From Berberis thunbergii (Eukaryota > Streptophyta > Magnoliopsida > Ranunculales > Berberidaceae), in contig QNQO01000809.1 of assembly GCA_003290165.1 (NCBI GenBank), positions 372,001 to 436,000 on the forward strand: 64,000 bases of DNA, written 5' to 3'. Under the pieces are notes generated by a model. The model was not told the origin of the DNA. It worked only from the letters and a program-made list of their open reading frames with translations, and did no database searches. Shown here one piece after another: positions 13,001 to 64,000 of the stretch. A program made the position numbers and the translations under genes. The stretch's first letter is position 1. Each line of letters opens with the position of its first letter.

Positions 13001-15245
13001 TCTTAACTCATTACACCCTCATGTTCTCTGACTTCTAAATTTTGCAATATTTTGCTCATTTCCTCTCCCATTTTGAATCCAACACTTGCGTCCAACATAT
13101 TAGGAGATTCTTGACTAGGCACTATCAATTATATAAGCTTTCTTCAATGATTGGAAGTATGAACATACATGAAGAAAATGATAGAGATGGATGAACCAGA
13201 TAACATTTGACATTGGAAAAGTAGATCATGATGCATACTAACACACTATCACCTAATCAATTCACTATCCATAGTAACAGTACTTATCTTATTTAATTAT
13301 AAGTTCTTGATATTTAGTGAGTTAAAAAAAAAATTTAAGGGATACTTCTTTTTAGCAAAAAGGCTTACTTACACCTTGGAACTTTAGAACATTCATACAC
13401 TGGGATATTTTAACAATTTATTCCACTTAATCCTCTGATAATAAACCATGAAGTACCCCTTACCATACATACACACATAGAATATATTGTTTTTTCTGAA
13501 TCAAACTAATTGTCACTAGTGGATCAATGAAAGCAAATCTATTTAATTAAACAACTAAAGCACCAAAAACTTGAGCTGAAAATGAATAACTCACCACACA
13601 CACGCCTTGATAATTTTGCTAGCTCTGCTGCAGCTAGCTTTGCTTTTTTCCCAGCATACTCCCTGCTTTCTACTGATTCTGAACTCCACTATAAAACAAC
13701 AGCAAATTTTATATAAAATATGATAATACCATGTCCTTAAGTATATCATTTTCACTACGATCTTCTTTCACAAGCAACTGGAAGAAAATGGTCACCAAGT
13801 AAACAAGCTCAAATCATAAACAAATGTGCGACATAAAATGTAAAGTTTGTGAGAAAATGTACCTCATTATCATCTCTTTGGTGAGAATGTATGAAGACAT
13901 CCTCTAAAACAATTATGATGGGATCCCAACCTAGCTTTTTCCATGGAATTTTTATGCTTAACTTCCCAATTCGACCTATTAGATAAGTCCACAGTCAAAA
14001 CAAACTTAGAACGCGAGCACAAAAGTAGAAATTCAGGTTAGTAATCTTAACAAAAGGTATTCAAGAAGGTACATTGAGGGTGATGGATAAAGAGGACAGG
14101 TGCATTCCTATTTGTTTGAAAATACAAAATTTTATCACTGATTTGTAGCAGTTAAAGGATCTTTTTTATTCAAATTCCATGGATACTGAAAAACGATTAC
14201 AATAAAGCCCGAAGCGCATTCAGTACACTGAACCTGTTGTTGGTACTGTTGACCTACAAATACACATGCCAAAATTTCAAACTATTGGTAATTACCACCA
14301 CTCCTTGTATCTAAGATGGTAGCTGAAGTATCAATAGTATGTAGAGTAGGTTATCCTAGTTAAACATAAATAGATCTAGAGTCACATGTTGTAAAGAGTT
14401 AAAGAGTCAATCCCCATTGCCAGATATCTTCCTTGATTGAGAAAAATGCCTCTTCAACTTAAGTCTTGTCCCTTCAAATATATTATGTTGCTTTCCTTCA
14501 GAATTGCCCATGTCATAAAATAAGCACTCGTATTCAGATTCCATACCAATGGTCATGCATGTATTGTTCCTTTCTATTGGCCAGGACACCCTGAACTCAT
14601 TATGAGGGTAACCCATACAATTTTAGAAAACTGACAGTTGATGAGAATGTCATCTAATCTCTTTGCCCTCTTCACAAAGAACGACTTTGAACTTTATTTG
14701 CTAATAGGTTTGGGTTATTCAAAAAAAAAAAATTTAATAAAAATTAAAAATTAAAAAAAAATAATAAAAAAATTAAAAATAAACCTACAGAGTTGGTGAG
14801 AAGCGTACAGTGAAAAGCTGAACATGTAAAGGTTACATTCTAAATATTTTTGTGAGCTTTATCAAGGATTTAATGTTTTCATAAGAAACAAGTGATTGAT
14901 GCCGGACCTAAAATCTTGGGGATGAAAAAAATAATCAAACAAAAGAGTAAAGAAGTTACAAGTAGGGTGGGTGTTGATATACATACCTTCCTCTAGTGCC
15001 AAAGGCAATTGGAGGTAGTTGAAAGCTTCAGGAATCAAAGCTACGTTTTCCAGTAACAGTTCCCCTGCACATAATATTCGAAGCGAGAAGTGTTGGTATC
15101 AAAAAAAATTGAATGAGAAATGATTGAAATTGATAATTAAGAACTTACCGTTCCATAAGCCGATCTTGAGCTTCTCCTTGGGGATGTCTTTGACATATCT
15201 GCCGAGGTAATCGAGTAGCAATTTCTGGACGAGCCCTTCGAACAT
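1015..15245 (-). CDS. VPS13-like intermembrane lipid-transfer protein, N-terminal 11 exons (partial at left edge)
   Basis: VPS13 proteins are long rod-like bridges that move lipids between membranes at contact sites. Eleven exons, read from high to low coordinates, join in frame: 15149-15245, 14987-15064, 13863-13975, 13595-13688, 11495-11538, 11168-11236, 6045-6109, 4444-4651, 4113-4184, 3957-4036 and 1015-1164 (1070 bp, about 356 residues). All have GT donors and AG acceptors and matching phases. The start [11 protein letters not shown] and the motifs [63 protein letters not shown] and [14 protein letters not shown] are typical of plant VPS13 chorein regions (M type). Donor gtaagt ends exon 11, so the gene goes on beyond the window. 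No stop or frameshift was seen. The first bases of exon 10 were set by homology: the alternative acceptor 10 bp upstream would bring in a stop. Exon borders are my reading and not transcript-based. Confidence 0.88.
2250..2830 (-). mobile_element. L1 LINE fragment, 3' end with zf-RVT domain
   Basis: The minus strand encodes the zinc-binding tail of plant L1 reverse transcriptases: a Cys-X2-Cys start ([10 protein letters not shown]), then [16 protein letters not shown] and later the block [14 protein letters not shown]. Downstream on the same strand is a short 3' tail with AATAAAATC and an A-rich end near 2245-2260, as expected for the 3' end of a retroposed LINE. The upstream part (2700-2830) still reads as a decayed L1 tail in shifting frames. 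The 5' remainder is absent, as is usual for 5'-truncated LINEs. It lies in VPS13 intron 10 in the gene's own orientation. Confidence 0.72.
3300..3640 (+). mobile_element. L1 LINE fragment, zf-RVT region, opposite strand
   Basis: The plus strand carries [19 protein letters not shown] followed by [17 protein letters not shown], which is the pattern of the L1 zf-RVT linker (iPsKvaFFlW...l...l.rRg). The frame breaks after about 3540 but similar residues continue in another frame. Orientation is opposite to the neighbouring fragment at 2250-2830, so this is a separate insertion. Confidence 0.62.
3825..3854. repeat. (ACCATT)5 microsatellite
   Basis: Five perfect tandem copies of the hexamer ACCATT are followed by the degenerate unit AACAAT. 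It is located in VPS13 intron 10, 100 bp from exon 10. Confidence 0.9.
4652..6044 (-). other. VPS13 intron 7 with an internal repeat block
   Basis: The intron between the exon ending EQNPLG and the exon starting [10 protein letters not shown] is about 1.4 kb. Its middle (about 5290-5735) is built of repeated motifs: CGGTACATCGGTACGGTAC on one side, then three copies of a unit containing CTTAATAACATGCAAATATTTTAT or a close form, and two copies of CAATACACAATACTTT. This looks like a small decayed repetitive element; no class could be assigned. Confidence 0.45.
6110..11167 (-). other. VPS13 intron 6 (5.06 kb)
   Basis: The intron joins the exon ending [10 protein letters not shown] to the exon starting [11 protein letters not shown]. 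It contains an L1 endonuclease remnant (listed separately), a weak minus-strand zinc-knuckle-like trace near 8190-8290 (CGQIGHIRM) that may be LINE or retrotransposon gag debris, a block rich in GGACACG/GTGTC motifs at about 6940-7640, and an inverted-repeat-rich block with GAGGC/GCCTC at about 9040-9240. No host gene was recognised in it. Confidence 0.6.
9660..10420 (-). mobile_element. L1 LINE fragment, endonuclease region, decayed
   Basis: Reading the minus strand from 10420 down, short blocks in changing frames match the N-terminal endonuclease of plant L1 ORF2: a V-R-x-LGNGRTL start (near 10110), then [28 protein letters not shown] and [17 protein letters not shown], at the spacing of the family consensus. 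Several frameshifts are needed. It is in VPS13 intron 6, in the gene's orientation. Confidence 0.55.
12745..13080 (-). mobile_element. probable L1 LINE 3' fragment
   Basis: On the minus strand this stretch ends in ATTTTATTGATTAAAAAAAG, the same type of 3' end as the L1 fragment at 2250-2830. Upstream sequence is rich in stops but shows a TTTTTGGTTGGTTTGGGAA block that resembles the L1 tail. The call is based mainly on the 3' end, so it is tentative. It lies in VPS13 intron 4. Confidence 0.35.
14155..14650 (-). mobile_element. decayed L1 LINE 3' remnant
   Basis: The minus strand reads [12 protein letters not shown] and later [11 protein letters not shown], which line up with LKEFRVSW and [13 protein letters not shown] of the L1 fragment at 2423-2671. 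The 3' side ends in AATTTGAATAAAAAAG, a LINE-like tail. It is more decayed than the 2250-2830 copy. It lies in VPS13 intron 2. Confidence 0.45.
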
Positions 15246-15385
15246 CTCTCTGTCGCTCGCTCTCTCAAATGAATGACTTGGAAACACAAGTCATGGGTTT
15301 GTTAGATTAGATTAATCGAATGTGTCTACTTATTCTTCGTGGAGCCACCATCGATAAAGAGAAAGAGATTGAGAGTATGTATGTG
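15246..15385 (-). promoter_or_regulatory. 5' flank / probable 5' UTR of VPS13
   Basis: Only 140 bp of apparently unique sequence separates the VPS13 start codon from the repeat that begins at 15386. It is CT-rich next to the ATG on the gene strand (GCTCTCTCAAATG type), as is common for plant leaders. No convincing TATA box was seen in it. The core promoter may therefore lie inside the inserted sequence, or this may be leader only. Confidence 0.4.
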
Positions 15386-15611
15386 CAATGTTTTAAAAAA
15401 TGTTTTTCAGCCTCTAGTCGATCAAGCTTTTTCCGAGGCGAAGCGAGGCGTTTTTTAATAATTAAAAAAATTTACCAAAAAAAAACAGTTGAAACAATTA
15501 GTATATATTAAGATATTCTAGAAGACTTACATGTTTGTTTAATCGTTATTTACTTATTTTATGAATTTCTTTTGCAGATTAAATGAAGCACCAACATGAA
15601 AATGAAGACTG
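15386..15611. mobile_element. hAT-like repeat end, family 'CAATGTTTTAAAA'
   Basis: This begins CAATGTTTTAAAAAATG and continues with GATCAAGCTTTTTCCGAGGC and a shared block that ends GAAGCACCAACATGAAAATG near 15605. The same order of blocks opens the 1507-bp element at 49046, whose both ends are visible. Beyond about 15611 the two copies diverge, and no matching right end (TTTTAAAACGCTG type) was found before 18.4 kb. The copy is therefore truncated or was broken by later insertion. Confidence 0.6.
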
Positions 15612-15906
15612 AACATTTCAAAGTCATGCAAGGGACTACCAATAACATACTGTGTAACATTACTTATATTGAAGAGAGTGCACAATACTTCATTTATATT
15701 AAAACAATTTTGAGGGCATGACAAACTTAAAAAAAATAAATGAAGAATGCTCTTTTCATCATCAAAATTATAGAACAAACTTGTGCTTGGTTTAGATTAC
15801 TCTAAGGCAATTGCAATTATAGATATCACTCTAAGGAATTTCGCAGCCAAAATACAGCAAGATGGCAGCCCAAAATATAGCAAGATAGCAGCCCAAAACC
15901 ACATAC

Positions 15907-15967
15907 CTCTAAAGCAATAACAGCATCGAATGTCCTCTATTCTTCAACCAACTTTTCTGTCAACAGT
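15907..15967 (-). pseudogene. COQ3-like methyltransferase exon fragment (captured)
   Basis: A 61-bp exon with AG acceptor and GTATGT donor reads LLTEKLVEE, a stop, then RTFDAVIALEV across the donor. This matches the region of plant COQ3 (ubiquinone-biosynthesis O-methyltransferase) around AEKLV...FDAV..LEVIEHV. The stop codon in the middle and the lack of neighbouring COQ3 exons show it is non-functional. A stretch this short is weaker evidence than the other three fragments. Confidence 0.55.
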
Positions 15968-16067
15968 CTGCAAGGAACACAAATTAGCATTGTCAGTTTA
16001 ACTGGTTCAACCCATAGCTTAGTACAAGAGAAAGAAATTAAGAAGAGCTTAGATTGATGGCACTCAC

Positions 16068-16240
16068 AGGAGGCTCTCATCTCGTTCTCCTCCGATAACA
16101 ATTTTACCAGAAACCTTGTCATCGTCTAATAGCTTTGACAGGCGCGCAAAGTGATTGGAGTTCACAACACGAGACAAGTCTTTTGATTTCAGTGGATCTT
16201 TCCCGAAGGATTCCTCCAATATATCTTTCAAGGCATCTAT
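16068..16240 (-). pseudogene. ALDH3-family aldehyde dehydrogenase exon fragment (captured)
   Basis: A complete exon of 173 bp, with AG acceptor and GTGAGT donor, encodes IDALKDILEESFGKDPLKSK, DLSRVVNSNHFARLSKLLDD and KVSGKIVIGGERDESLL. This is the conserved ESF-G-P-SKDLSRIVN-HF-RL block of plant ALDH3 enzymes, which lies between the catalytic cysteine region and the C terminus. The reading frame of the exon is intact, but no other ALDH3 exon is near it, so it is an isolated fragment. Confidence 0.85.
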
Positions 16241-17155
16241 CTGGTATAGAGATGGGTTTAAGCAATAATCCAAAAGAAAAAATAGATTATCTGGCTATGT
16301 GCAAATCCCATAATATAGTTAACACACTTCAAATGAAAGTAACAACATCTGATACACATACAAGAACAAATACAGCAAGCACCCGACAACAAATACAGCA
16401 AATACAAGAAGTATGCTAAACAGACAGCTGAGTATGGTTGCAGTTCGAGTCGGAACATGTAATGTGGAGTTAGAGCTTGGTGTTCATAAACAAAAAAAAG
16501 GGCTAGTACATGGTTGCTGACCACTGCAGAGATTTGATACATTACTGAATGTTGGGTAATGTTAGTGAATTTAAATTTAGGTATTCCCAAAATACAAATT
16601 TCGAAGAAGAAATGTAATTAGAACAAGAAGAATAGGAAGAAGTATAATTAGAAGAAGAAGTATTCGTACAGAAACAGAGCTTGGATCAAAGTGTTCAACC
16701 AAAGTGTTCGAATCGCAAATGAAACGGCTTCGATCGACCAAAGTGTTCGACCGTCTTGTCTTCTTTGATGATCGATCGCTGGTTCGATCTTCTCTTCTTC
16801 TCCTCTTCTTCCTCTCTTCTTCTATTCTTCTTCAGTTCGTGTCTGCAAATGAAACACAATTAGAGGAAAGAGTCGAGTTAGGTTAAGTTATTAATCATAA
16901 TCTCAGTCGTTGGATCTGTTTAAAGATGATGTTATGTGTGTACGTGTCTGTATATGGTGTTGCTTTGCTGCGAGGTATGGTCGGTCTTGGGGAAGCTTTG
17001 CTGCCAGGTAAGACCTGTGCCGTTGGCACTACTACAGAGTACATCGCACTTTCACGAAATTGTCGAATAATCGCAATTGAATTTTTATTTCATTATTTAA
17101 AAAAACACTTACAATGAATTAACTTTGACAAAAAAATGGAATGACGACTAAAACA

Positions 17156-17279
17156 GATGCTAGCAATCTCCACCTCAGTAAATATCTCACCAAGAGCCTT
17201 CAGCTTCATCATAACAGATGGCAAATCTCCCAGTGTGACTTTACCACCCAATTGACTCTTCAGTGAAATAAAATGCACG
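17156..17279 (-). pseudogene. fimbrin-like exon fragment (captured)
   Basis: The stretch encodes FISLKSQLGGKVTLGDLPSV then MMKLKALGEIFTEVEIASI. This matches the EF-hand-like N-terminal segment of plant fimbrins (LKSKF.S.K...G.VTVGDLPP...KLKA...EEEI). Fimbrin cross-links actin filaments through later CH domains, none of which are present here. Edges are approximate. Confidence 0.7.
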
Positions 17280-17822
17280 TAGTCCATCCAAATTCACAAT
17301 TCATTTCCCATAATCCATCAATGTAAACTAATAACATGTTATGAATGATGATCTAGCCTCCTCTCAAAACATCCACCTTAACCCATCTCAAAACATCCAC
17401 CTTAACCCATCACTGATCTTTACATAATAACCCATTTCTCATTCAACATATTAAAATGAACTTGATTTTACCCATACTAATCAGTGGATCTACAAATCAA
17501 ACACAATTTTCAACAAATATGAATCCACCCATGGTGTTCAACATACATTCAAGCTCAATCAGCAATTCAGCCAAATCAAAACAATACCCAAAGTTCCTTA
17601 AAGTACCCATGGTGCGATTCAAAGAAGACTGACTTCGAATCCAATCCATCAGACAAATAAAACTCAATCAAAACAAATTTGAAACTGAAATCAAGACATC
17701 TAAAGAAGATCAGATTGATTTCAATTAATTAACCCAACAATTCAATTGGATGCAGGAAACCTAACAACAGTGATGATTGATTGGAACTTGATTGAGAAGA
17801 CGAAAGTAAGTATAGATCGAAC

Positions 17823-17896
17823 CTTACGACCGTCGACGGAGAGAAGACCGCTAAGGATGCATTCTTTGAGTCCAGTTCCGAGCACTATGGCTGCCG
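17823..17896 (-). pseudogene. Rab GDP-dissociation inhibitor exon 1 fragment (captured)
   Basis: The sequence encodes [20 protein letters not shown] followed by RK and a GT donor. This is the invariant N-terminal FAD-fold-like motif of Rab GDI and REP proteins ([27 protein letters not shown]). The natural start (M-D-E-x-Y-D) is missing and replaced by ISAA. The rest of the GDI gene is absent. Confidence 0.85.
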
Positions 17897-18761
17897 AAAT
17901 CCAATAAAGAAAAGATCGATCGCAGAGGAGATGGAGATCGAAAGGGGTTTTAGGGTTTCTGATAGAATCGCCTCTATTTCAGAGAGGAGGAGACAGAGAG
18001 ACCTATGTGATGAGAGAGTTCTCAAATAAAAGACGCTTTTGTCAGTGAGTGAGGGCAAGCATTTGTTGTTCGCCTTGTTCCTTGCTTGCTGAAATGGGGT
18101 TGAAAATGCTTGTTTTCTATTTGTGTTCGTGTAGGTGTTGACTCTTCTCTGCTCTTGTTCTCAGAAGATGGGGAGAGTGGAAGAGAAGAGATAGGAAGGA
18201 AGGAAGAGAAGAAGCAAACCGCGAGGAGGAGCAGAGAGAAATTCAAGTAAGATTGGGTTGAGTGATAAGGGTTTTGATATATATTTTTAGGAGAAGTCGC
18301 AAAGGATAAGGAGGAGAACATTGAGGGAGAGGAGAGAAGGAATCGAGGTATTTCTTCACCCTTTGGCTATTGGAGCATGAAGAATTTGGAATCGCATAGG
18401 AAGATTTGAGAATTAGGGGGATGTATTGTATATGGATTCTTATGGAATTGATAAATAATTTGAAAAGTCCACAGACTCTTTAAAATGTCTACGGACTTCT
18501 GCTTATTTCTTAAATCTATAGACTTTTGCTACAGACTTTCCAGAGATTTATGAAAATCCACGGACTTTGTATGAACGACTTTTACAGATTTCTAATTATT
18601 TGTAAGATAAAAAAAGCTGATAAATAGTGATGAAACAAAAAAACGTCCGCATATAATTAACAAAAGTGAGAGATACATGTGCTAAAAAAACTAAAAAAAG
18701 AAAAGGTTGTTAATTAACATCTTTAAAATAAGAAGTAAACGTCCATAAAATTGTATTATGA

Positions 18762-18890
18762 TCATTCTTCTCCTTCATGATCATGGTCACTTTCTTCATT
18801 ATCATTGTTAGCAACGTTGACGTTTGCTTGAGTTGCTGCCCACATTTGATTAGCAATACTCATTCTCCATTGATTAGCATTTTCAACATT
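18762..18890 (-). pseudogene. Harbinger transposase C-terminal tail
   Basis: The minus strand encodes ENANQWRMSIANQMWAA, a Q-A-N-V-N-V-ANNDNE stretch and an acidic end (HDHEGEE). The same tail follows the DDE domain in the sister copy at 20625-21056, which identifies it. The match between the copies ends sharply near 18887, where the captured kinase sequence follows after about 13 bp of filler. Confidence 0.75.
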
Positions 18891-18899
18891 CGATGTTAG

Positions 18900-19663
18900 T
18901 TGATTCTCCTTGTTTACGATTATGTCCCTAATGGGAGCCTTGATAAGCTCTTGCTTAGCAATCAAAAGAAAGCTCTGACTTGGGAGCAAAGATATAGGAT
19001 CTTGATTGGGGTTGCTCAAGCTTTGTTGTATCTCCATGAAGAATGTGAGCAGAGGGTAGTGCACCAAGATGTGAAACCAAGCAATGTGCTTCTAGATGCC
19101 GAACTCAATGCCAAACTTGGAGATTTCGGCCTAGCCAGGATATATGATCATGACATTAATCCTCAGACTACTCATATTGTAGGAACTCTTGGGTACCTCG
19201 CTCCTGAGTTCACCAGGACAGGAAAAGCTACAAAAAGCACTGATGTGTATGCTTACGGTGCTCTAATGCTTGAAGTAGCCAGTGGAAAGAGGCCCATTGA
19301 ACCACTAGAGAATGCTGAAGAGTTGGTGTTGGTGGATTGGGTCAGGGAACTACATTCGAAAGGAGAAATCATGAGAGCCATGGACTCCACGTTGAAATCT
19401 TACAATCTGGATGAAGGAGAGCTTATTCTTAGTCTTGGTTTGTTATGTTCCCATCCCATCCCTAGTTGCAGGCCCAGCATGAGAAGGGTTGTACAGTTTC
19501 TCTTAGGGTACGCATGGATATCCATCTCGACATTCCAGGCTTGATTGCAGGTTCCTCTGAAATTTGTCTAGATGATTCAGATCCTTCATCCAGGATGACA
19601 TCTTCCAAGAGTACATCTAGTTTCACAAGCTTTAACAAAAAACATGTAGCTCAAAACACTTGA
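18900..19663 (+). pseudogene. L-type lectin receptor-like kinase fragment (captured)
   Basis: The frame enters the kinase at the hinge (LLVYDYVPNGSLD) and runs through the catalytic loop HQDVKPSN, the DFG motif, APE, subdomain IX (DVYAYGALMLEVASG) and subdomain XI (RPSMRRVVQFL). The glycine loop, VAIK lysine and helix C are missing, and so are the lectin and membrane parts. The usual HRD is HQD. An in-frame TAG directly precedes the hinge and no ATG starts it. A frameshift near 19505 moves the natural C-terminal tail (DIHLDIPGLIAGSSEICLDD, then a Ser-rich end) into another frame, which ends at TGA 19663. It is therefore a piece of the 3' half of a LecRK gene, carried in a Harbinger element, and not a working kinase. 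Confidence 0.88.
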
Positions 19664-20624
19664 GCAACTTACTAAATGACACGAGGAAGCAAACTTAACA
19701 TAACTTCCAGATTTATAGAACCTAATTTAATCCAAACCCTAACCCAAAATCATCAACGATGCAAACTATTAATACTTATGCAAAGATAGAAAAAGAATCG
19801 AGAAAACAAGATGATGGGAACCAACCTCTTCACGGCTGGCACAAGGAAGAACTTTGGGAGACTTTTTTTCACGTTGAAATCTTTGATATGGAGGCTGGCA
19901 AATTATTGAACTTTGTTATTTATACCTAACACTACAAAGTCCATGAGAATCCATGATTTTTCAAATCCATAAATATGAATGATATTTTGAATACCCTAAA
20001 ACTTTTTTGGACTTTCTGAAATCCATATTAAATACCCCTAGACTTTGTGGATTTCAGAAAGACTTTTTAAAATCCTGATTGTATACCCCTAGACTTTTGT
20101 GGACTTTTTAAAATCCAAATTGAATACACTTGGATTTTCAAAATTCATGAAATTTATTAAATTGCCCACAAAATCCAAATACAATACACCCCCCTTAGAG
20201 AGAGTGAGGAAAGCATCGAGGGTAAAATTTTCCACTTAAGTTCTGCCAAAGATATAACATTACCACGCAGGACAAACACTTGTCATATATTCTTATGGAA
20301 TTGATAAATAATTTGAAAAGTCAACGAACTTTTTAAATTGTCCACAGACTCTTTAAATTTTTCACGGACTTCTGCTGATTTCTTAAATCCATAGATTTTT
20401 GCTACAGACTTTCTAGAGATTTATGAAAATCCACGGACTTTGTATGAACGACTTTTACAAATTTCTAAATATTTGCAAGATAAAAAAGAAGTTGGCAAAT
20501 AGTGATGAAACAAAAAAAGTCCATAAAATAGAGATACATGTGCTAAAAAAAACTAGAAAAAAAATGTCGTTAATTAGCATCTTTAAAATAAGAAGTAAAC
20601 GTCCATAAAATTGTATTATGATCA

Positions 20625-21056
20625 TTATTCTCCTTCATGGATTCTTTTTTCATTATCATTGTTAGCAACGTTGATGTTGGCTTGAGCTGCCCACATTTGA
20701 TTAGCAATACTCATTCTCCATTGATTAGCATTTTCTCTTTGCTGCTCTTGGGTTTGAATATCATCACAATCAAAATTATCTTCATCATTCTCTACCGGGT
20801 CATTTTCTGGTTTAGGAGGAAATTCATCTGAACGACATTCTTGTCGAAGAAAATTATGCAATCATGCACATGCCAAAACAAGCTCCGCTTGTGTCTTGTA
20901 AGGAAATGGTGGTGCTAATTTGAAAATTGTAAACCGCGACTTGAATATTCCAAATATTCTCTCAATTACGTTCCTCAATGAAGCATGACGAAGATTAAAT
21001 AACTCAATTGCGTTGACAGAATGGTTTCCTGGACCGCCAAACATACATACATACAT
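20625..21056 (-). pseudogene. PIF/Harbinger transposase, C-terminal DDE_4 part
   Basis: Two open stretches, separated by one stop, encode LRHASLRNVIERIFGIFKSR, FTIFKLAPPFPYKTQAELVL and ACA, then LHNFLRQECRSDEFPP and an acidic tail. The R-H-SLRNVIER-FG..K.RF block with the glutamate after RNVI is the last catalytic part of HARBI1-like transposases, followed by the usual ...VLAC.aLHNF. The N-terminal two thirds of the gene are missing, so the element is non-autonomous. Confidence 0.82.
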
Positions 21057-21659
21057 GATCCAACCATGATCAACTTATATGGTCCAATCATGATCCAAAC
21101 ACATGGAAGTCAAAACCAACTATAAATCTAGTCATACGCAAACAACTATAGCAAAATATCATATATATAGCATATATGATCCAATTAACCATAAAAAACA
21201 TACCTGAGAAGATAACCGGCATCAAAAACATATATGCTAGGGATTGTAAGCCATAATGATCCAACCAAATATACTATATATATTTAATCCAGTGATTTAT
21301 AAACCCTAATTTAATCCAAACCCTAACACAACTTCCAGATTTATAGACCCTAACCCAAAATCATCAACGATGCAATTATGAACACTATAGTATATTTGAT
21401 CCAGATATATAAATCGCTGGAAGAATCAACGATTTATAAACCCTAATTTAATCCAAACCCTAAAATAATCCAAAATCAAGGCTATAAATCGCTGGATTAA
21501 AATAATTAGAGGATGGGAAGTTGTGTTAAGGGTTTGGATTAAACTTAGAGGATTGGAAGTTGTGTTAGGGTTAGGATGGGAAGTTGTGTTAGGGTTTATA
21601 ATCCCATCCTATAGTTGTGTTAGGGTCTATAAATTCATTATTTTAATTAACGATTTATA

Positions 21660-22085
21660 AATCAAATAGATGAACTTGAATCCAAAGTCAAGGCTATGTC
21701 ATATCAGCTCTCAGAAGCTGAAAATGCTCGAGAGCCGCTGCTCTATGCTGCAAATGAGCTGATGATCACTCAAGAAGAGCTGATTAATGTGAAAAATGAA
21801 TTTGTTGTTGCCGAGGAATCAAAGTGCTATGTCACAAGTTGAACTAATGTCAGTTACTATTAATATTGAGAAAGAAAAGACCAGAGAGCTCAATGAAGAT
21901 ATTCTTGTCTCAAAGTTGACTGCTATTGCAAACATGAAAGAGCATTCAAAATTTGTATCAGAGAAGGATGTTGAAGTTCAAGCACAAGATCATCTGGAAG
22001 AGCTACAAAACCAATTGGATGTAATACAGGAACTAGAGAAGCAGCTCTCAGATAAGACGTTTATCAATCAGAACTGAAGCAAGTG
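21660..22085 (+). pseudogene. captured coiled-coil gene fragment
   Basis: The plus strand reads DELESKVKAMSYQLSEAENA, then after frame changes MSVTINIEKEKTRELNEDIL and DHLEELQNQLDVIQELEKQL. The heptad pattern, with many E, K, Q and L residues, is that of a long coiled coil. I do not recognise the parent gene. It replaces the position that the kinase fragment occupies in copy 1. About 70 bp of it (GATGTAATACAGGAACTAGA onward) recur at 22190-22262. Confidence 0.6.
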
Positions 22086-22189
22086 AAAGAGTTGCACAGT
22101 TCTTTGATAATGATTTATATGAATTCCAGCGATATAAGTTCAAGATATAAATACATAACTTCCATCCTAACCTATGAATACACAATTGG

Positions 22190-22262
22190 ATGTAATGCAG
22201 GAACTAGAAAAGCGGCTCTTGGATAAGACGTTTATCAATCAGAACTGAAGCAAGTGAAAAAC
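22190..22262 (+). repeat. direct repeat of the coiled-coil fragment's end
   Basis: About 70 bp (GATGTAATGCAGGAACTAGA through AACTGAAGCAAGTGAAA) repeat 22017-22087 with a few substitutions, separated by about 100 bp. This suggests local duplication or template switching when the fragment was captured. Confidence 0.8.
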
Positions 22263-22530
22263 TGAAATCCATATTGAATACCCCTAGACTTTGTGGATTT
22301 CAGAAATACTTTTTAAAATCCTGATTGAATACTCCTAGACTTTTGTGGACTTTTTAAAATCCAAATTGAATACACTTGGATTTTCAGAATCCATGGAATT
22401 TATTAAATTGCCCACAAAATCCAGATACAATACACTTGCCCACAAAATCCAGATACAATACACCCCCCTTAGACTTGGGGAAGGGATCCTTCCATGCAAC
22501 ACCACCAAAAATGCTTGCGGTACCTACAAC

Positions 22531-22946
22531 TAAGGTGTAAGCGATTGATCGGATTCGGATCGGATTGTTTGGAAACCGAATCCATTAGGACACGGGAAAT
22601 CCAAATCAGATCCAAGTATTTTCGATAGGATAAATCTAAATTTTCATCTGATCCAACCCAAAGTTACTTTAAATTGATTTTTTTTAATATAATAGATGTT
22701 AAGATTTGTTTATAGGTAGGTGCTAAAATGCCCAAAACCACAGTCTTATTTAATGTTAATAAAATTTCAAGTTGAAGTCTAAAACTATATAAATTGAATT
22801 CATATCGAAATCGGATTTAGTTAAGAAATTTTGATACAATTTTTACATCCAGGTCCATTCTAAATACGAAACGTTCAAATTGAATCCAATTTATTTGATC
22901 AAACCGAATCTGATTTCCAACATCATCTGGTCGATTGACACCTTTA
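22531..22946. mobile_element. possible hAT-type MITE
   Basis: The left end TAAGGTGTAAGCGATTGATC and the reverse complement of the right end, TAAAGGTGTCAATCGACC, are similar imperfect inverted repeats. Internal sequence repeats GGATTCGGATCGGATT and its complement. The flanking 8-mers (CCTACAAC and CCAAGTAC) agree at only five positions, so the target duplication is unconvincing. Confidence 0.35.
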
Positions 22947-23552
22947 CCAAGTACGAACTTGTGTTTTGCAACTCTTCTTAATACGTAACAAATAAATAAT
23001 TCATTTTTGTATCAAATAGAGAATAGTTTGTTTTTGTGCGCTTCAACAGCAATGTGTACACACTGTGTTTTTATTTAGTTTTGGTCCCCTTTATTTGTTT
23101 GAAATTGAGACAAAAACACACATTCTATTGAATTTTTTTAAATTTATTATAACAAAATTTCACTTTCACGATTCTTCAGCAGAATGATTTCTTATTGAAA
23201 GAGTGTGTGTGTGTGTGTATGTGTTTGCTAAAATGAAATAGAGAGTTATCTTAGAATCCCCTAATAGTTGTCTAAGTGTCTTTATATATACAACTCCTTG
23301 CATGTTTTTTTTTCATGCATTAAATGTTATGTGGGGAAATCTTTGAAAACATGATCTCAAATCCGCCATATCTTAGACTAACAAACATGTAATTTCATCA
23401 AACTTGTAATTTGATCAAGCCATAAATTGTTCTCATTGTGACATGAATTGCAAAATGGTTCGGTCAAATTATCTCAAACAGGCCCTTCTTTGGGTGTTTA
23501 GGGAAGAGGACTGGATCGCTTTGTACTTGTTGTATCCCTAACTCTTATACAA
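22947..23552. other. intergenic AT-rich sequence
   Basis: No coding match or clear element was seen. A short (GT)n run lies near 23201-23220. Confidence 0.6.
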
Positions 23553-26518: not shown

Positions 26519-26917
26519 TAATAAAAGCAACAACAATTTATTGAAAATGGAACTTTGAGCCATTATACAAATGAAATATCATAAATGAAATATTATATAA
26601 TTAGATTGGAAAAAAATGTACACAAAGAACAACAACAATCACAAACATGACACTTAATTACATTTTCTAATAAAAAATTGACACGGAAATTAGGATGCTA
26701 ATTGAAAAACAAAATATTTAATGAAAATGTTGTCAAGCAGAATCATCTGCATTTTGCACAGGCTCTTGGCAATCCATGACTTTGGTCTGTCTTATAACTG
26801 GGGAAATCAAATTCCATACTGCATGAAGCAAACAAGTATCAGATAACTTGAAAAATGTATATGCATTATTGCCGAGCAAAGGTTTTCATTACATGAGCAT
26901 GTTTGGAAGCAACATAA
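26519..26917. other. intergenic AT-rich sequence
   Basis: No coding match or repeat was recognised between the MULE target duplication and the Gypsy element. Confidence 0.55.
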
Positions 26918-26922
26918 GTAGG

Positions 26923-27600
26923 TGATGATACATAAAAATGGTCACACCCCGGAGCTGTACATGTGTCATGATGATCTCGAGGAATCACTAACTCAAGCGT
27001 CAGCCCAACACTGATCCAGCCCAAGCGGTTCTAAGCTTGCCCAACTGTGGTTCTCCAGTTGGACCCGAACTCCCACAACATGCTAGGCCCACACGTCTCA
27101 CAACAATTCTCAATACCCGCAAGCCTTCTTCAGACAAGTATCTCGAAGATTAGTTTCAGACGGGCAATTACAACTGCTCTATGCTTCCAACTAGGAAGCA
27201 AACACCAGAATATCTTCCACATAAGAAAACTCCTTTCTACGGATTGTTCTTGGATTGAGAACTACCTCCCGTGTATCAAGGAGCACATAGCTAACATGGA
27301 ACTTCCCTCCTGCAACACGACTCCTAATTAGGGAGGGATCTCCACGAAGATCTCATTTCTAAACTACACCTACGATGGCCTAGTAGAACCAGAACTCATT
27401 GCACTATAAATAAGACATGAGGTTGGTAAGCTAAGGTACACTACAAATTCCTTGTTACAGCATTACACATTTCTCATAGCCTTGTCTGACTTTAGCATCG
27501 GAGTGTCATCTGCCATCCCACGGTGGTATGTGGCTCACATGCGTTACTTGTGCAGGTTAGCGGGATTAGGTCAAAATAGGGAGCGAAAAAAACTACATCA
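26923..27600 (+). repeat. Gypsy 5' LTR
   Basis: The LTR starts TGATGATACATAAAAATGG and ends GAAAAAAACTACATCA. A TATA-like ATAAATAAG lies at about 27408-27416. It matches the 3' LTR over its whole length, with scattered substitutions and small gaps. Confidence 0.88.
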
Positions 27601-33637: not shown

Positions 33638-34253
33638 CTAAGAAATGGAATAACGAACTTCCCTGAAACAAATAAACCATGTCAGAACCCGTGTCACAAA
33701 AGGAGCGCATGAAGATATGCATGCACCAACAACCAAGGACTCACCAAGGTCAAACTGAAAGTACCGAGACACTCTGCGACTCCCGAGCCTGCAGTAACCA
33801 GAATCTGTCGAAGCCAATAACCATTGCTTCTTCCAAGATTCAACGTTGTTCGTCGTCAGTCGCAGACAAGAAAGACAAGTCAGCATACATATACTTTTGG
33901 AATCCAGCCGAGCATCGGTCAAGCGATGAATCACTAGCGAAGTCATGATCCCTCAGGAGAATTGTGAGCAGTATCTTGAACCCGCGTCGAGCCATTTGAG
34001 TGGGAGGCATGCAAAAGTGGGTGAAGGAGCGCCAGATGTCATTTGACACTGGGAACCGAAGCCGAGACTGGAACATACCTCGGTACAAGCCTATAAACCC
34101 ATGAGGGGCATAGTCAGACCTAAAACTCCAAATGCAGGAACAGTTTGCAAATCTCCAGGGATAACAGATCTTTGGAAAAAAGTTTAACGTTGTCAGCCAG
34201 CCATTGGGAAGGAAAACAAGTATTACGGTTCTAAAAGATAGCTCATATAACAA
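33638..34253 (-). pseudogene. antisense ORF of the Gypsy element, N-terminal part
   Basis: The minus strand encodes YAPHGFIGLYRGMFQSRLRF, PVSNDIWRSFTHFCMPPTQM and ARRGFKILLTILLRDHDF. The pattern of a Gly-rich start, LRFP, a short helix and P-x-Q resembles the 'putative gypsy-type transposon' (Transposase_28-like) domain that sits at the N terminus of such ORFs. Frames change at about 33840. A second copy lies at 34486-34888 because of the local tandem duplication. Confidence 0.5.
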
Positions 34254-35266
34254 TGAGAAAATCTTACTCAGAACAGTGATTATTTATAAGGGAGGCAAAT
34301 CGAATTTTCCCTCCACGAGCAGTCACGTACCCATTAAATGTCATGCACCGCTCAAAACCAATGCTTCGAGTCCAATAGTACAGTTGTCTTTACAAAGAGT
34401 TAGTGGACCGACATAACACCCCACTAATTTGGGGGGAGTAGCTGATGATACATAAATACGGTTACACCCCAGAGCCGTACACATGTCATGATATGCATGC
34501 ACCAACAACCAAGGACTCACCAAGGTCAAACTGAAAGTACCGAGACACTCTGCGACTCCTGAGCCTGCAGTAACCATAATCTGCCGAAGCCAATAACCAT
34601 TGCTTCTTCCAAGATTCAACGTTGTTCGTCGTCAGTCGCAGACAAGAAAGACAAGTCAGCATACATATACCTTTGGAATCCAGCCGAGCATCGGTCAAGC
34701 GATGAATCACTAGCGAAGTCATGATCCCTCAGGAGAATTGTGAGCAGTATCTTGAACCCGCGTCGAGCCATTTGAGCGGGAGGCATGCAAAAGTGGGTGA
34801 AGGAGCGCCAGATGTCATTTGACACTGGGAACCGAAGCTGAGACTGGAACATACCTCGGTACAAGCCTATAAACCCATGAGGGGGCATAGTCAGACCTAA
34901 AACTCCAAATGCAGGAACAGTTTACAAATCTCTAGGGATAACAGATCTTTGGAAAAAAGTTTAACGTTGTCAGCCAGCCATTGGGAAGGAAAACAAGTAT
35001 TACGGTTCTAAAAGATAGCTCATATAACAATGAGAAAATCTTACTCAGAACAATGATTATTTATAAGGGAGGCAAATCGAATTTTCCCTCCACGAGCAGT
35101 CACGTACCCATTAAATGTCATGCACCGCTCAAAACCAATGCTTCGAGTCCAATAGTACAGTTGTCTTTTCAAAGAGTCAGTGGACCGACATAACACCCCA
35201 CTAATTTGGGGGGAGTAGCTGATGATACATAAATACGGTTACACCCCAGAGCCGTACACATGTCAT
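33714..35266 (+). repeat. 776-bp tandem duplication next to the 3' LTR
   Basis: Copy 1 (33714-34489) and copy 2 (34490-35266) are nearly identical, with a handful of substitutions and one extra G. Each includes part of the antisense ORF, the polypurine tract and the first 47 bp of the LTR (TGATGATACATAAATACGG...). The junction falls at GATATGCATGC, where ATCATGAT of the LTR meets the start of the unit. The partial LTR start at 34443 is thus a by-product of the duplication. Confidence 0.92.
35206..35217 (+). promoter_or_regulatory. Gypsy polypurine tract
   Basis: TTTGGGGGGAGTAGC directly precedes the 3' LTR. An identical tract lies at 34429-34440 in the first copy of the local duplication. 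Confidence 0.75.
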
Positions 35267-35896
35267 GATGATCTTGAGAAATCACGTCCTCAAGCATCAA
35301 CCCAACACTGATCCGACTCAAGCGGTTCTAAGCCCGCCCAACTACGGTTCGCCAGGCGGATCCGAACTCTCACAACATGCTAGACCCACACGTCTCACAA
35401 CTATCTTCAATATATTTTCAAGCAAGTATCTCAAAGATCACATTCGAACAGACAACTACAACTGCTCTCTGCTTCGAACTAGAAAACAAACACCAGAGTA
35501 TTTTCCACACAGGGAAACTCCCTTCTACGGATTGCTCTTGAATTGGGAACTATCTCTCGCGTGTCTAGGAACATAGAGCTAACAATGAACTTCCCTCCTA
35601 CAACACGACTCCTAATTAGAAAAGAATCTCCACGAAGATCTCCTTCCTAAACTACGCCTAAGATAGTTTGGTAAAATCAGAACTCCTTGCATTATAAATA
35701 AGACGTGCCGTTGTTAAGCTAAGGTACGTTACAAATTCCCTGTTACAACATTACACTTTCCTCAGAGCCATGTCTGACTTTAGCATGGAGTGTCATTGAC
35801 CACCTCACGGTGGTCTGTGGTTCACGTTCGTTACTTTTGCAAGTCAGCAGGTCTGCGGGATTAGGTCAAAACAGGGAACGAAAAAAGACTGCATTA
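35220..35896 (+). repeat. Gypsy 3' LTR
   Basis: It starts TGATGATACATAAATACGG and ends AAAAAAGACTGCATTA, matching the 5' LTR at 26923-27600. The differences between them are scattered substitutions, suggesting an old insertion. The last base pair of the LTR is TA and not the CA seen in the 5' copy. Confidence 0.88.
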
Positions 35897-44828: not shown

Positions 44829-45030
44829 GGAAAATTCTAAATGTCGAGGATTTGGGCGAGGAAAATAGCGAGGGAAATGAGGTGGACGGGGTGGAAACCG
44901 TCCATCCTCCTCGGGAGGTGCGCGTGGAAAGTCAACGCTCACCTCCCGAGGAGGATGGACGGTTTCCACCCGTCCACCTCATTTCCCTCGCTATTTTCCT
45001 CGCCCAAATCCTCGACATTTAGAAAAGCTC
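44829..45030. mobile_element. Mutator-type foldback MITE, 202 bp
   Basis: Two arms of about 84 bp are almost perfect inverted copies (one base indel): TCTAAATGTCGAGGATTTGG through CCTCCTCGGGAGGT and back. They enclose a loop of about 20 bp with CGCGTGGAAAGTCAACGCT. The outermost 7 to 8 bases of the two ends are less alike (GGAAAATT and GAGCTTTT). The 9-mer ATACTTACA flanks it on both sides (44820-44828 and 45031-45039). Removing the element and one copy restores Copia-1's MVCTRP...KYMENPG order. It has no coding capacity. Confidence 0.9.
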
Positions 45031-49045: not shown

Positions 49046-50552
49046 CAATGTTTTAAAAAACATTTTTAAGCTTCGAGGCGTTCAAGCTTTTTCCGAGGCG
49101 AAGCGGTGCCTCAAGGCGTATCGAGATGAAGCGAGGCGTTTTTTCATAAAAAAATTGATGAAAATATAAAAAAATTATAAATAATAAAAAACAAAAGAAA
49201 CACTCATCAACGTAAGAGATAACATGAATTCAATCACAAAAGTGATTGAGGCGGTAGAATTACTTAATTATAGTGTATATTCTGGAAGACATGCAGTCTC
49301 GTTTAATCCTTACTTTATGTATTCTTGAAATCTTGTTGTCTAATTAAAACAATTTTGAATTTCTTTTACAGATTGCATTGAAGCACCAAAATGAAAATGA
49401 AGACTGGAGTTACCTGGTCGGCCGTCTAACGACAATATAATCAATGGGAACCGGCAACATCACTAATAAATTTGAGAACCCATTCAAGTCTAGTGCATAT
49501 GTCCATGTAAACTTTGTTTAGAATCGATATTGATATTGGTATGTCCTCCATGTAAACTTTGTTTAGAATTGATATTGGTATGTAATCTTTAATTTGGTCA
49601 AATTTTGATTTTGTTCTTCTTAGTCAAAACTATAATCATTTTTTATAAAAGAAAATGGGGAACCCAATATATTTGAGCACAATCATCAACTTGGAGTTGG
49701 ATAATGACTCGTAGTCCGTAGTCTCAACTCACTATATTAGGGCACAGTCATCAAGGCATCAATTTGCTCCAAGCAAAGTATTTTATAATAAATGGAGAGT
49801 TTAAAATAAATGAAGTTTGTGGAATAGAGAAAATTCATTGATTGAGACTTGACAACTTTATCTTGAAACCTTCTTTATCTTGAAGAAACTGTCTATATCT
49901 TAAAGTTTCTTGATATCTTAAAGTTGACTGAGATGCAGAAACTCTCTTTATCTTTGAAGCTTTCTTTATTTTGAAAACTTGAACAACTCCATTAATCGAG
50001 AGGGATAGAAGGAAGCGTGAAAATGTTGTTGAAGATGTTGGATGCTACAATCTCATGTTTCGATCAAGTGTTTGACAAGTTCAAATCGAAAGCACCCAAG
50101 CAAATCGACTAAACTTCTTCATCCCCTTCTTCTTTCGACCAGAAACCGATTTCTTCTTTGATCAGATGGAGAGGATCAAAGCACAACCTGCACTGGAACT
50201 TCTTCTGCTTCTTATTCTTCGATCACATCACTAAAACTTCTTATTCCATATCGATCTGTTGTTCTTCTTGTGATCGATCAGTTGATCTGAAACTTCTTTG
50301 AATCGACCGATCAGGTTGTTCTTCTTCATCTGATCTGAAAATGAAACAATGAAACAATTAATCAGATTTGATCAAATATATCTCTGTTTTATTGACTCAC
50401 ACGCTTCACACCGAGTCGAGGCGGACGACTCGACTCATAAGAGTCATACAAACAAAGCGTACGTTTTACTTACTCACTCTGACTCGTACGCATCAGTGCA
50501 TTTGCTTGCGAGTTGCCTCAACTCGTGAGTCAAAACTCTTTTTAAAACGCTG
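49046..50552. mobile_element. hAT-like non-autonomous element, 1507 bp, in Copia-2
   Basis: The ends are CAATGTTTTAAAA and, read inward from the right, CAGCGTTTTAAAA. The 8-mers ACTCCAAT (49038-49045) and GCTCCAAT (50553-50560) flank it, one mismatch. Removal rejoins Copia-2 pol (...NLKLQSAKPEDV). Subterminal GAGGCG motifs repeat at the left end. No transposase motif was recognised. Other members of the family lie at 15386 (broken) and, more distantly, at 51828. Confidence 0.8.
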
Positions 50553-61175: not shown

Positions 61176-62393
61176 TCATAATGGACATGGGATACATTCA
61201 CAAATCTCGAGGATCGATGAGGCCATAGCAATCATCTTCATTGAGATCCACTGTTGGATCGTCTTCTTCATCAGCTTCATCAGAACAAATTGGGACAGAG
61301 TTTCGATGAGCTGAGCTCGGGTTGGTTTGGTCATGATTTTCTGCAGAATCTGCTGCTTCAACTGTTTAACGTTGGAGGATGATTCTGAGGGGAGACCAAT
61401 TTGTACTGGTGGTGGTGTAGGAGACACCTCTTTCTTGGAGAAGAAAGCTGTTACGCCTTCTTTTGTAACCTTGGAATGGTCAAACCGCTGCCACCACTTT
61501 ACTTTGTAGCGTCGGCAAAACCATTGGGGCGGTTTGACTTTGGAGAGATTGATAGCAAGATCAAGGGGAGAACATACGTAATCCCAACACATGATCCATG
61601 CTAGATTGAATCTAATAAAGAACCAGATCGAGAGTACCTGTTTGTCTACAGGTGCAGGAGACTGGTACATTTCTTTGAACACATTCCAACCTTTTCTGAC
61701 AGGTGAAGGGAGAATGTCAATAACAGGACCATAAGAGCTCCACCATTGATGCTGAAACCAGAATGGTAGAACCTTCTGATTGAACTTTTTGCAGAAAAGA
61801 AAGAACCACGAATGGCCACTTTGATGAAGACTAACTAAAAATGCTCGAGTCCAAGCATTTTTGTAGTCAAAATAACTGTAAGAAGAAGGAACATAGCTCT
61901 GTGAGAGCTTCTTGTGATAACGGGGATGTTGTCCCCATTCAGCTTCAGTCAAGACCTTGAAGATCCGACACTTGGAGAAAGTAATGCGAGAATTGGTGTC
62001 ATCATAGTAATGGGTGACACTAATTGAGTCTGAATCAACTAGAATGAATTCATAGAATTCTCTAGATTTGGAGGCATCAGATTCTTCAAACTGTTGGTCT
62101 GGAGAATACAGATGCTTTGAGATTGCTTGAGGATCAGAGATCAGAGCCTGGAATTGGGGCTCAATCAAGCAAATGAAGTCTATATTAGACTTATTAATGT
62201 ATTGGAGAGGTGCCTGATTAGGCTTTGAGAAACTCACCATAGATGAGTTTAATTCTTCATTTTGTGTCAGAGGAGAGAACTTTTGGGACAATTGAAGAAC
62301 ATAAGAAAGAGGGGCTGGCTGCGGAGAAGCAGAAGGCTTCTTCGCATAACTGGCCTTTGATTTTGGCTTGGGAGATGAGGATGAATAACTCAT
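61176..62393 (-). CDS. florendovirus-like ORF2, function unknown
   Basis: An uninterrupted 405-residue frame begins right after the RNase H part. The first 35 residues are Ser/Pro/Lys-rich. The middle is rich in aromatic residues, with clusters of W (HQWWSSYGP, KWWQRF) and FCKKFNQKVLPFWF. The end is Leu/Ile-rich with a short coiled-coil-like helix (NVKQLKQQILQKI). No catalytic motif is seen. The length and position fit the ORF2 of florendoviruses, whose role is not established. Its intact frame contrasts with the broken polyprotein next to it. Confidence 0.72.
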   Translation of the reverse strand: MSYSSSSPKPKSKASYAKKPSASPQPAPLSYVLQLSQKFSPLTQNEELNSSMVSFSKPNQAPLQYINKSNIDFICLIEPQFQALISDPQAISKHLYSPDQQFEESDASKSREFYEFILVDSDSISVTHYYDDTNSRITFSKCRIFKVLTEAEWGQHPRYHKKLSQSYVPSSYSYFDYKNAWTRAFLVSLHQSGHSWFFLFCKKFNQKVLPFWFQHQWWSSYGPVIDILPSPVRKGWNVFKEMYQSPAPVDKQVLSIWFFIRFNLAWIMCWDYVCSPLDLAINLSKVKPPQWFCRRYKVKWWQRFDHSKVTKEGVTAFFSKKEVSPTPPPVQIGLPSESSSNVKQLKQQILQKIMTKPTRAQLIETLSQFVLMKLMKKTIQQWISMKMIAMASSILEICECIPCPL

Positions 62394-62399
62394 CTTTGG

Positions 62400-63711
62400 A
62401 GAAACTCACGGGAGAGGAAGTCTGCCAGTGAGTTGTCAGCTCCCTTTATATACTTGATTTCAAAATCAAATGCAGAAATCAAACCTTGCCATCTGGCGAA
62501 AATCTGTTTAGAAACCAAATTGAGAACATCTTTAGTTAAAATATCTTTTGCAGATTGGCAATCAATTTGCAGTAAAATTTTTGATTTATTAAATCATCTT
62601 GAAATTTCATGATGCACAATACGATCGCTAAAACTTCTTTTTTGACCGTAGAATAATTCATTTGAGTAGAGTTCCAAATACCAGAATGGTATCGGACCAA
62701 TTGAATAGTAGAAGACTCTGGGAGACGCTGTTTGAGGATACCACCATACCCTTGGTTGGACGCATCTGTTTCTACTATTTTGAAGGCATTGGGATCTGCA
62801 ATTCCTAAACAAGGAAGATTTTTGACTTGACGGACTATGGAAGTATGGGCTTCAGTCCATGGGCCTGGATTTTTCTTAAGGCGAGAGTATAAGGGCTTAA
62901 TCAAAACTCTAAGGCCTTTATAAAAATCTGCAACATAATTTAAAGATCCTAGAAATCTTTGTAATTGGGTTTTATCCCGGATTTCATCTGAAAATTTATC
63001 TGCAAATTCAATTGTTCTTGAAATTGGGGTAATCATACCATTGAAGATTTTGTGACCTAAAAATCTAACATTTGTTTGAAACAAATTGATTTTGGTTGGA
63101 GATAAAACCAATCCATTCTTTTTAATACAATTTTCGAATTGATATAAATGTTTCCAGTGAGCTGGAACCGAATCAGAGAACACCAGTATATCATCGATAT
63201 ACACAATGGTGAATTGAGAGAATTGAGAAAGAATATCATTCATGATATTCTGAAACTCACTTGGAGCATTTTTGAGACCAAATGGCATTACATTCCATTC
63301 GTAATGGCCAAAGGGGACATTGAAGGCGGTTTTATACCGATCCTTGGGGTGAACCTGGATTTGCCAAAATCCAGATTTAAGATCAAATTTAGAAAATACA
63401 CAAGCATTGTGTAGTCTTTTCAGAAGATCTCTTTGAGAAGGAATTGGATATCTTATCCATTGAAGAACCTGATTTAGAGGTTTATAATTAATGACAAGAG
63501 GAGGACTTCCTCGTTCTAGTTCCGCGGCTTTGTTGACATAAAAAGCAGCACAACTCCATGGAGATTTAGAATCTCTAATGAGTCGTTTCTGTTTTAATTG
63601 ATGTATTTCTTGTTTACAAAATTCCATAAGTTCGCTATTCATTTGAATAGGGCGAGCCTTAGTAGGAATTTTTCTCTCATCAAACCCTGGTTCGTAGGGA
63701 AGACGAACCAC
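62400..63711 (-). pseudogene. pararetroviral reverse transcriptase / RNase H
   Basis: The enzyme copies the viral RNA into DNA in the capsid. The open stretch 62536-63711 (391 residues) has the RT blocks VINYKPLN, FSKFDLKSGFWQI, VMPFGLKNAP, the catalytic YIDD (residues 171-174), FLGHKI and the RNase H start IVETDASNQGYGG (Asp 316) with VKKEVLAIV (Glu 359). Near 62590 the frame shifts by one within an A/T run, and the remaining RNase H residues lie in another frame down to about 62400, where ORF2 begins. The domain is therefore split. The upstream end of this frame, at about 63711-63760, is another frameshift. Confidence 0.85.
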
Positions 63712-64000
63712 ATGCTGGGATCTATACCAGAATGCATTAGGTAGATTAGAACAGAGTTCATTTGTAAATGTTTTTGATATTGAATTATTTGAGATTGAAG
63801 TTTAGGTTCACTGATTTGATCAGCAACCCTTTTATATTCAATTTCTTGTTTAAGAAAGTTTAATTGCTGTTGTTTGCTAATTAAACGATTCAAAAACACT
63901 TTGTGTTGAACTTGATTAAGTTCATATACTTCTGGTTTAAACAAGAATGGAAATTCAAGTTTTGTACCTAAATAGGTAATTGAAATCCCTTGTTTAGACA
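63712..64000 (-). pseudogene. pararetroviral protease-RT linker, cut by window edge
   Basis: This part, in a different frame from the RT, reads PEVYELNQVQHKVFLNRLIS and KQQQLNFLKQEIEYKRVADQ, a charged helical linker. The protease would lie further upstream, outside the window. A frameshift near 63760 separates it from the RT part. Confidence 0.7.

Follow-up and report, generated by a model that had tools for sequence, protein, structure and literature searches.

The window, a 64,000-nucleotide stretch of the Berberis thunbergii genome, holds on its minus strand, between positions 15907 and 17896, a row of pieces from RabGDI, fimbrin, ALDH3 and COQ3, in the sequence that a sequence-only reading of this DNA had stated. 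The three GT donors that it mentioned are likewise intact (GDI, 17822; ALDH3, 16067; COQ3, 15906). Together with a kinase fragment (discussed later), five gene sources are represented in approximately 3.6 kb (15907-19544), and these were delivered by three kinds of transposon.

The sequence-only reading took the four exons for a single captured block. We searched the window's own assembly (2,239,400,495 bases, or 2.24 Gb, in 11,732 contigs) with 15612-18412 as the query, and scored 40 of 2019 candidates. Among these, the right side (17155-18412, in whole or in part, mostly with the adjoining 17008-17155) was found at at least 21 other places, a count that omits two GDI genes, and the left side was found again at places other than those of the right side. 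As the two halves have different copy sets, we rejected a single four-gene capture. The junction of both halves was present, among the scored candidates, on C809 and C9089 only. The latter is also, among these candidates, the sole second copy of the whole block; it is 98% identical over 3.4 kb and, because it carries the 5' end of the neighboring VPS13-like gene as well, most likely represents the other haplotype. The reading that we favor, with a probability of roughly 90%, is that a GDI-fimbrin Helitron and a hAT-related element bearing ALDH3 and COQ3 are independent mobile elements that lie side by side, stacked before the VPS13-like gene. Weighing against this two-element explanation, 70 bp are unaccounted for, from the end of the hAT-like sequence at ~16937 to that of the Helitron at 17008.

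The Helitron is non-autonomous, is oriented on the minus strand, and consists of two parts: a main part (17008-18416), comprising the 3' two thirds and more of the element down to a decayed 3' end, and a 5' part (20195-20289), separated from the first by a later Harbinger insertion. Compared by gapped blastn with the 20 copies that were fetched, the main part shows 89-93% identity, and it ends near the position of CTAG in the other copies; in most of them, 17008 through 18416 runs directly into 20195-20289. The copies were fetched from 20 of the 21 places (C11544 was left out) and represent 12 loci besides that of the window, eight pairs having shared flanks. For L010/L017 and L026/L027 the sharing was seen on one side only, and L025, in which no end was located, was counted as its own locus.

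Complete copies are approximately 1.63 kb long, starting with TCTATCTTACAATTC directly after an A and finishing with GTGCCAACGGCACGGGTCTTACACTAG directly before a T. Among the 18 fetched copies whose 5' end is readable, 14 show the TC, 13 of them identified by script and L010 by eye; L016, L018, L020 and L021 deviate from it, and the end is unreadable in L017 and L025. At the 3' end, 16 of 17 readable copies have CTAG, the exception (L009) having TTAG, and L025-L027 are unreadable. An A precedes the TC in 12 of 14 copies and a T follows the 3' end in all 17, which fits insertion between an A and a T with no duplication of the target, the absence of which was judged by eye. The copies also share a 3' hairpin, GTGCCAACGGCAC or decayed forms thereof. 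In the window this hairpin (GTGCC-AAC-GGCAC; 17017-17029, minus strand) is the single exact match, and the 101-base stretch that holds it folds modestly better than shuffled sequence (z = -2.1, with 8 of 200 shuffles equally stable). These ends, and the approximately 12 other insertion loci, bear out for GDI and fimbrin the earlier suggestion of Helitron capture; the suggestion fails for ALDH3 and COQ3, which belong to a separate family, related to hAT, whose own copies share an end near 15386.

The window's own copy is damaged at both termini: the first ~35-40 bp of the 5' end are lost, and the 3' end reads CTGG, with no T after it, the final bases being CTTACCTGGC in place of CTTACACTAGT. 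Because of this decay, a strict scan for a hairpin followed by CTRR and T returned no Helitron end in 15300-20500. When the scan was relaxed and the T omitted, only 17029 was found within the same interval; the relaxed scan with T returned two unrelated places (21408 and 21731) in 14000-23500.

The GDI segment (17320-18105, minus strand) comprises 206 bp before the start codon, exon 1 and the start of intron 1 of a RabGDI gene. Identity to the GDI gene at C335 (L036) in the same genome is 89% for the window and 91% for copy L011, and spans approximately 780-810 aligned columns. The coding remnant of exon 1 (17823-17888, minus strand; 22 residues), followed by its donor GT (17822-17821), was recognized by Pfam (GDI, E = 9.6e-9) and PDB (Rab-GDI, E = 5.2e-6), as well as by the copy alignment and the source gene. 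Relative to the C335 gene, the captured DNA lacks 21 bp containing the start codon. In an alignment of the 15 most complete of the 20 copies (L017 and L025-L028 were left out), the start codon is absent from all 15, and 13 retain the donor GT, the two exceptions representing one locus. Exon series of GDI-type genes are present in the B. thunbergii genome, where 132 matches, the Helitron pieces included, were obtained. As the match begins only 206 bp before the ATG, a complete GDI promoter should not be assumed.

The fimbrin piece (17156-17272, minus strand) corresponds to the first part of exon 2, in the EF-hand region, and its acceptor has changed from CAG to CAT. Its second half and donor were lost by a deletion of ~91 bp; in the consensus, the piece runs on to an exon end of EF-hand type, followed by a GTGAGT donor, and the frame of this consensus exon is undisturbed in 12 of 15 copies. 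Scored against Arabidopsis references, with crossed controls of 22 and 17, the fimbrin piece reached 82 (FIM1 N-terminus) and the COQ3 exon 64 (COQ3); none of 2000 shuffles reached either score. Database searches were less specific. The window's fimbrin piece had no Pfam match and one weak, unrelated PDB match (BIM1, E = 0.026), and a protein database search with the fimbrin and COQ3 pieces gave nine candidates, of which none reached E 10. When the full fimbrin exon was taken from a copy, it yielded a weak EF-hand match, below the cut-off, and PDB matches to calmodulins (among 60 of 240 matches listed), which fit an EF-hand and do not name fimbrin.

The fimbrin-holding part of the Helitron is 93.5% identical, over 291 columns, to a fimbrin-type exon 1/exon 2 locus at C1464. 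That locus has the acceptor TGCAG, whose CAG is replaced by CAT, always at one position, in the window and in 13 of 15 copies. Copies L022 and L023, which are one locus, keep the CAG and, with a K2P distance of 0.044, are the most diverged of nine loci measured; the nine copies differ from the consensus by 0.017-0.044. A cryptic AG lies ~11 bases inside the exon. Fimbrin exon 2, with all or part of exon 1, is also carried by L042 and L044, which have the same kind of 3' end, and by L045, whose end falls outside its stretch; no GDI match was found in the 600-700 bp fetched for these three. Measured to the source, the K2P distance of the fimbrin part (0.059) exceeds that of the GDI intron (0.026), which fits capture of fimbrin first; alternatively, the divergence of the fimbrin part may indicate that a locus other than C1464 was its true source.

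Another repeat family (L046, L047 and L048, on C140, C215 and C30) was seen to carry DNA of the same fimbrin-type locus, namely its 5' region, its exon 1 and a part of exon 2 (382 bp at 90-93% identity, in all three places fetched). With 150 of 543 candidates scored, at least 89 exon-1 fimbrin matches were among the matches listed, and a few of these lie in real fimbrin genes. Two transposon families seem to have drawn on a single fimbrin locus.

The ALDH3 and COQ3 pieces are carried by a hAT-related non-autonomous element on the minus strand, delimited through its family copies and a transposase relative, with a sharp end at ~15386 and an approximate one at ~16937. A search from 15386 upward, in which 40 of 1215 candidates were scored (the window and C9089 among them, haplotigs included), placed the family at more than 30 places. 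Of the 38 other matches, 36 start at query bases 6-9 (15385-15388) in the main match, and the remaining two, on C309 and C7301, start there through a second piece. The copy on C66 is without the ALDH3 exon, that on C1217 is without the start of the COQ3 exon, and that on C5647 has COQ3 and no ALDH3 exon; the last extends to an imperfect inverted end, which the window lacks. On C237, the same terminal region occurs with a COQ3 remnant (by eye) and a same-strand transposase, which matched DUF659 (1.6e-52), a domain we take to be a mark of hAT transposases, and, weakly and below the curated cut-off, Dimer_Tnp_hAT (0.0014); Pfam found no BED finger piece in this copy. Inverted ends (AATGTTTTAAAAAG and CATTGATTTAAAAAG) were seen in one copy only, L034, where they are imperfect; the one sequence common to its flanks is CGTGAA, which stands at different offsets, and no clear target-site duplication of 8 bp was seen.

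We also considered the repeat at 15386-15816 as an LTR, on account of two direct copies on C2; these proved to be part of a tandem duplication of ~4.2 kb, and the LTR reading was rejected. A short relative of the hAT-like terminus is inserted at 49046-49407, in a region of copia-like ORFs (copia by eye) from which part of the copia sequence is apparently missing.

The ALDH3 segment (15968-16324, minus strand) includes intron, exon and intron as far as the next acceptor, and is 91% identical over 360 columns to an ALDH3-type locus on C281 (L031), which was named by eye from its exons. The match ends exactly at the acceptor of that locus's next exon, the point at which the window's COQ3 exon begins. 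The enclosed ALDH3 exon is complete (16068-16240, minus strand), with an acceptor and a donor GT (16067-16066), and matches both the C281 locus and class-3 ALDH in PDB (E = 2.5e-6); Pfam gave no match. The COQ3 exon (15907-15967, minus strand; 21 codons) has a donor GT (15906-15905) and an in-frame TAG (15939-15937), and was matched in neither Pfam nor PDB. COQ3-type genes are found in the same genome (18 matches from 20 candidates), and in all three COQ3-type loci fetched, the captured donor sits where the next exon begins (GTTATTGAGCACG, after AG). The COQ3 source exon itself was not found in six fetched stretches; of the parent genes sought in the plant's own genome, then, a GDI gene, an ALDH3-type locus and a fimbrin-type locus were recovered, and the source exon of COQ3 was not.

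All four fragments might still have traveled together if the 3' end of one long Helitron had been bypassed and the unit had run on through the hAT-like piece. The decayed terminus of the window copy, with its altered final bases, would allow such a bypass to take in flanking DNA, and 3' terminator bypass is a demonstrated Helitron behavior, by which capture was shown in cell culture for Helraiser (PMC4778049). The hAT-like piece, however, stops at its own family's common terminus near 15386, and the restriction of the junction to C809 and its probable haplotype C9089, among the candidates scored, also argues against a long unit; we consider this explanation very unlikely. The sequence-only reading had offered a Pack-MULE, i.e., a Mutator-like element with captured fragments, as its other possibility, and mixed gene fragments are indeed described as typical of Pack-MULEs (PMC13317346). 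For the GDI-fimbrin half this is already refuted by the Helitron ends of its copies. Moreover, comparison of 15380-15949 with 17900-18429 or 20190-20299 returned no inverted pair at 14/20 with an 8-10 bp target-site duplication, and none at 16/20, and a repeat scan of 15000-18700 showed only short, low-complexity inverted pairs among 25 of 50 listed. A Pack-MULE origin of the block is almost certainly wrong.

The insertion that divides the Helitron is a PIF/Harbinger element (element B; 18417-20194, minus strand), with the terminal inverted repeat GGGGGTGTATTGTAT and TAA on both sides. Since other Helitron copies run from 18416 straight into 20195, and so have the empty site, this stretch entered the window's copy later. 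The PIF-type inverted repeat has three matches in the window and none in 100 shuffles. On the plus strand within element B lies a kinase fragment (18900-19544; Pfam Pkinase, 3.8e-31; “receptor-like” by eye), the fifth captured gene piece. With its PIF inverted repeats, 3 bp target-site duplication, empty site and host gene piece, element B qualifies as a Pack-type PIF. A further Harbinger (element A; 20290-22473, minus strand), recognized by Pfam and repeat comparison and containing a DDE_Tnp_4 remnant, is fused to the truncated 5' end of the Helitron. Elements A and B are related, having both end regions in common (84% and 95%); in B the kinase piece sits mid-element, and the last part of A's coding end is kept (by eye).

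Considering these data together, we postulate that a Helitron first took up fimbrin DNA beside its 3' end, and that one lineage would later have taken up the GDI 5' part (5'UTR, exon 1 and intron start). The GDI-fimbrin Helitron would then have spread as a non-autonomous element of ~1.63 kb, in a burst mostly of the acceptor-less lineage. Independently, the hAT-related family may have taken up the exons of COQ3 and ALDH3. A copy of either element came to adjoin the other here, and the kinase-carrying Harbinger later split the Helitron. The gene pieces would thus be passengers, of replicative transposition in the case of the Helitron and of cut-and-paste transposition in the case of hAT and Harbinger, and such passenger transport is the explanation that the evidence supports.

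A GDI-fimbrin fusion protein is unlikely, as most aligned copies would offer neither a GDI start codon nor a regular fimbrin acceptor; the Helitron lineage with both lesions makes up eight of the nine aligned loci. The chimeric transcript suggested by the sequence-only reading is likewise made less probable by the lost ATG (15/15) and the destroyed acceptor (13/15 and the window). Lacking the ATG and a proper internal acceptor but retaining an intact donor, the Helitron might instead serve as a portable first exon, non-coding and spliced to a downstream gene, a role we judge unlikely; its putative targets here would possibly be the ALDH3 and COQ3 exons or the VPS13-like gene, and the cryptic AG in the fimbrin exon could weaken the case further. 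The start codon of this resident VPS13-like gene (15243-15245, minus strand; VPS13_N, E = 3.4e-8 and 32 bits, below the curated cut-off of 80) lies downstream of the hAT-related element, ~140 bp from its end. The stack might therefore be read as an alternative promoter and leader for it, being on the same strand, ~140 bp upstream, and equipped with the GDI exon 1 donor and the intact splice sites of the ALDH3 and COQ3 exons. The GDI homology, however, begins just 206 bp before the ATG, and we hold such a function to be unlikely. Since the COQ3 exon contains a TAG and the GDI piece has lost its ATG, no coding contribution to the VPS13-like gene would be expected.

The closest parallel to the Berberis Helitron is HelibatN3 of bats, which carries the promoter, first codons and splice donor of NUBPL, and for which an outward-splicing leader was shown (PMC4778049). 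Both amplify the 5' end of a host gene that finishes in a usable splice donor. The Berberis element differs in having no start codon, in the fimbrin piece behind GDI, the acceptor of which is destroyed in most of the aligned copies, and in its presence at about 13 loci; any promoter activity of it is putative. If it did act as a portable first exon, it would parallel, in a plant, the NUBPL exon-trap Helitron of bats, and if the GDI leader were expressed at several loci, it would represent a testable plant transposon that distributes first exons. Maize Helitrons also capture genes and give chimeric transcripts, with exons of unrelated genes within TC...CTRR elements between A and T (PMC4528327); the Berberis element, at 1.63 kb, is short by comparison, and any transcript of it is putative.

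Pack-TYPE transposons of rice and maize include the PIF and hAT superfamilies (PMC8903248), and PIF and hAT elements of grapevine carry host gene pieces (PMC2528002). The hAT-related and PIF/Harbinger elements described here resemble these in holding host exons and introns; they differ in that a Helitron, a hAT-related element and a PIF are stacked, and the sum resembles one multi-gene capture. The Tgm-Express CACTA elements of soybean likewise contain fragments of several genes, with exons that can be spliced to one another (PMC1947982), whereas the Berberis block is without the CACTACAAGAA ends of CACTA elements. We rejected such ends here: CACTACAAGAA is absent from the window, and CACTAC, which occurs 23 times, is found once inside the block (17027) and not at the block ends. 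Exon capture by Helitrons and gene-carrying PIF and hAT elements are already known, as is the general process (PMC13317346); no paper joining fimbrin with Helitron gene-fragment capture was found in the open-licence literature. The B. thunbergii case is a clear new example of known plant-genome exon shuffling. It illustrates that adjacent gene fragments on the same strand need not be one capture, and the probable order of steps, from fimbrin to GDI to burst to Harbinger, with source loci in the same genome, would make exon shuffling by a Helitron traceable stepwise.

Elsewhere in the window, ORFs on the minus strand at 61179-63998 contain reverse-transcriptase-like text and resemble, by eye, the remnant of an endogenous pararetrovirus. 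A perfect inverted repeat of 56 bp, enclosing a second pair of 40 bp, is located at 44835-45024. Large direct repeats (33714-35181, and 26917-27428 with 35214-35716; 98% and 82-84% identity, respectively) sit in a GC-richer stretch with ORFs that were named gypsy-like by eye.
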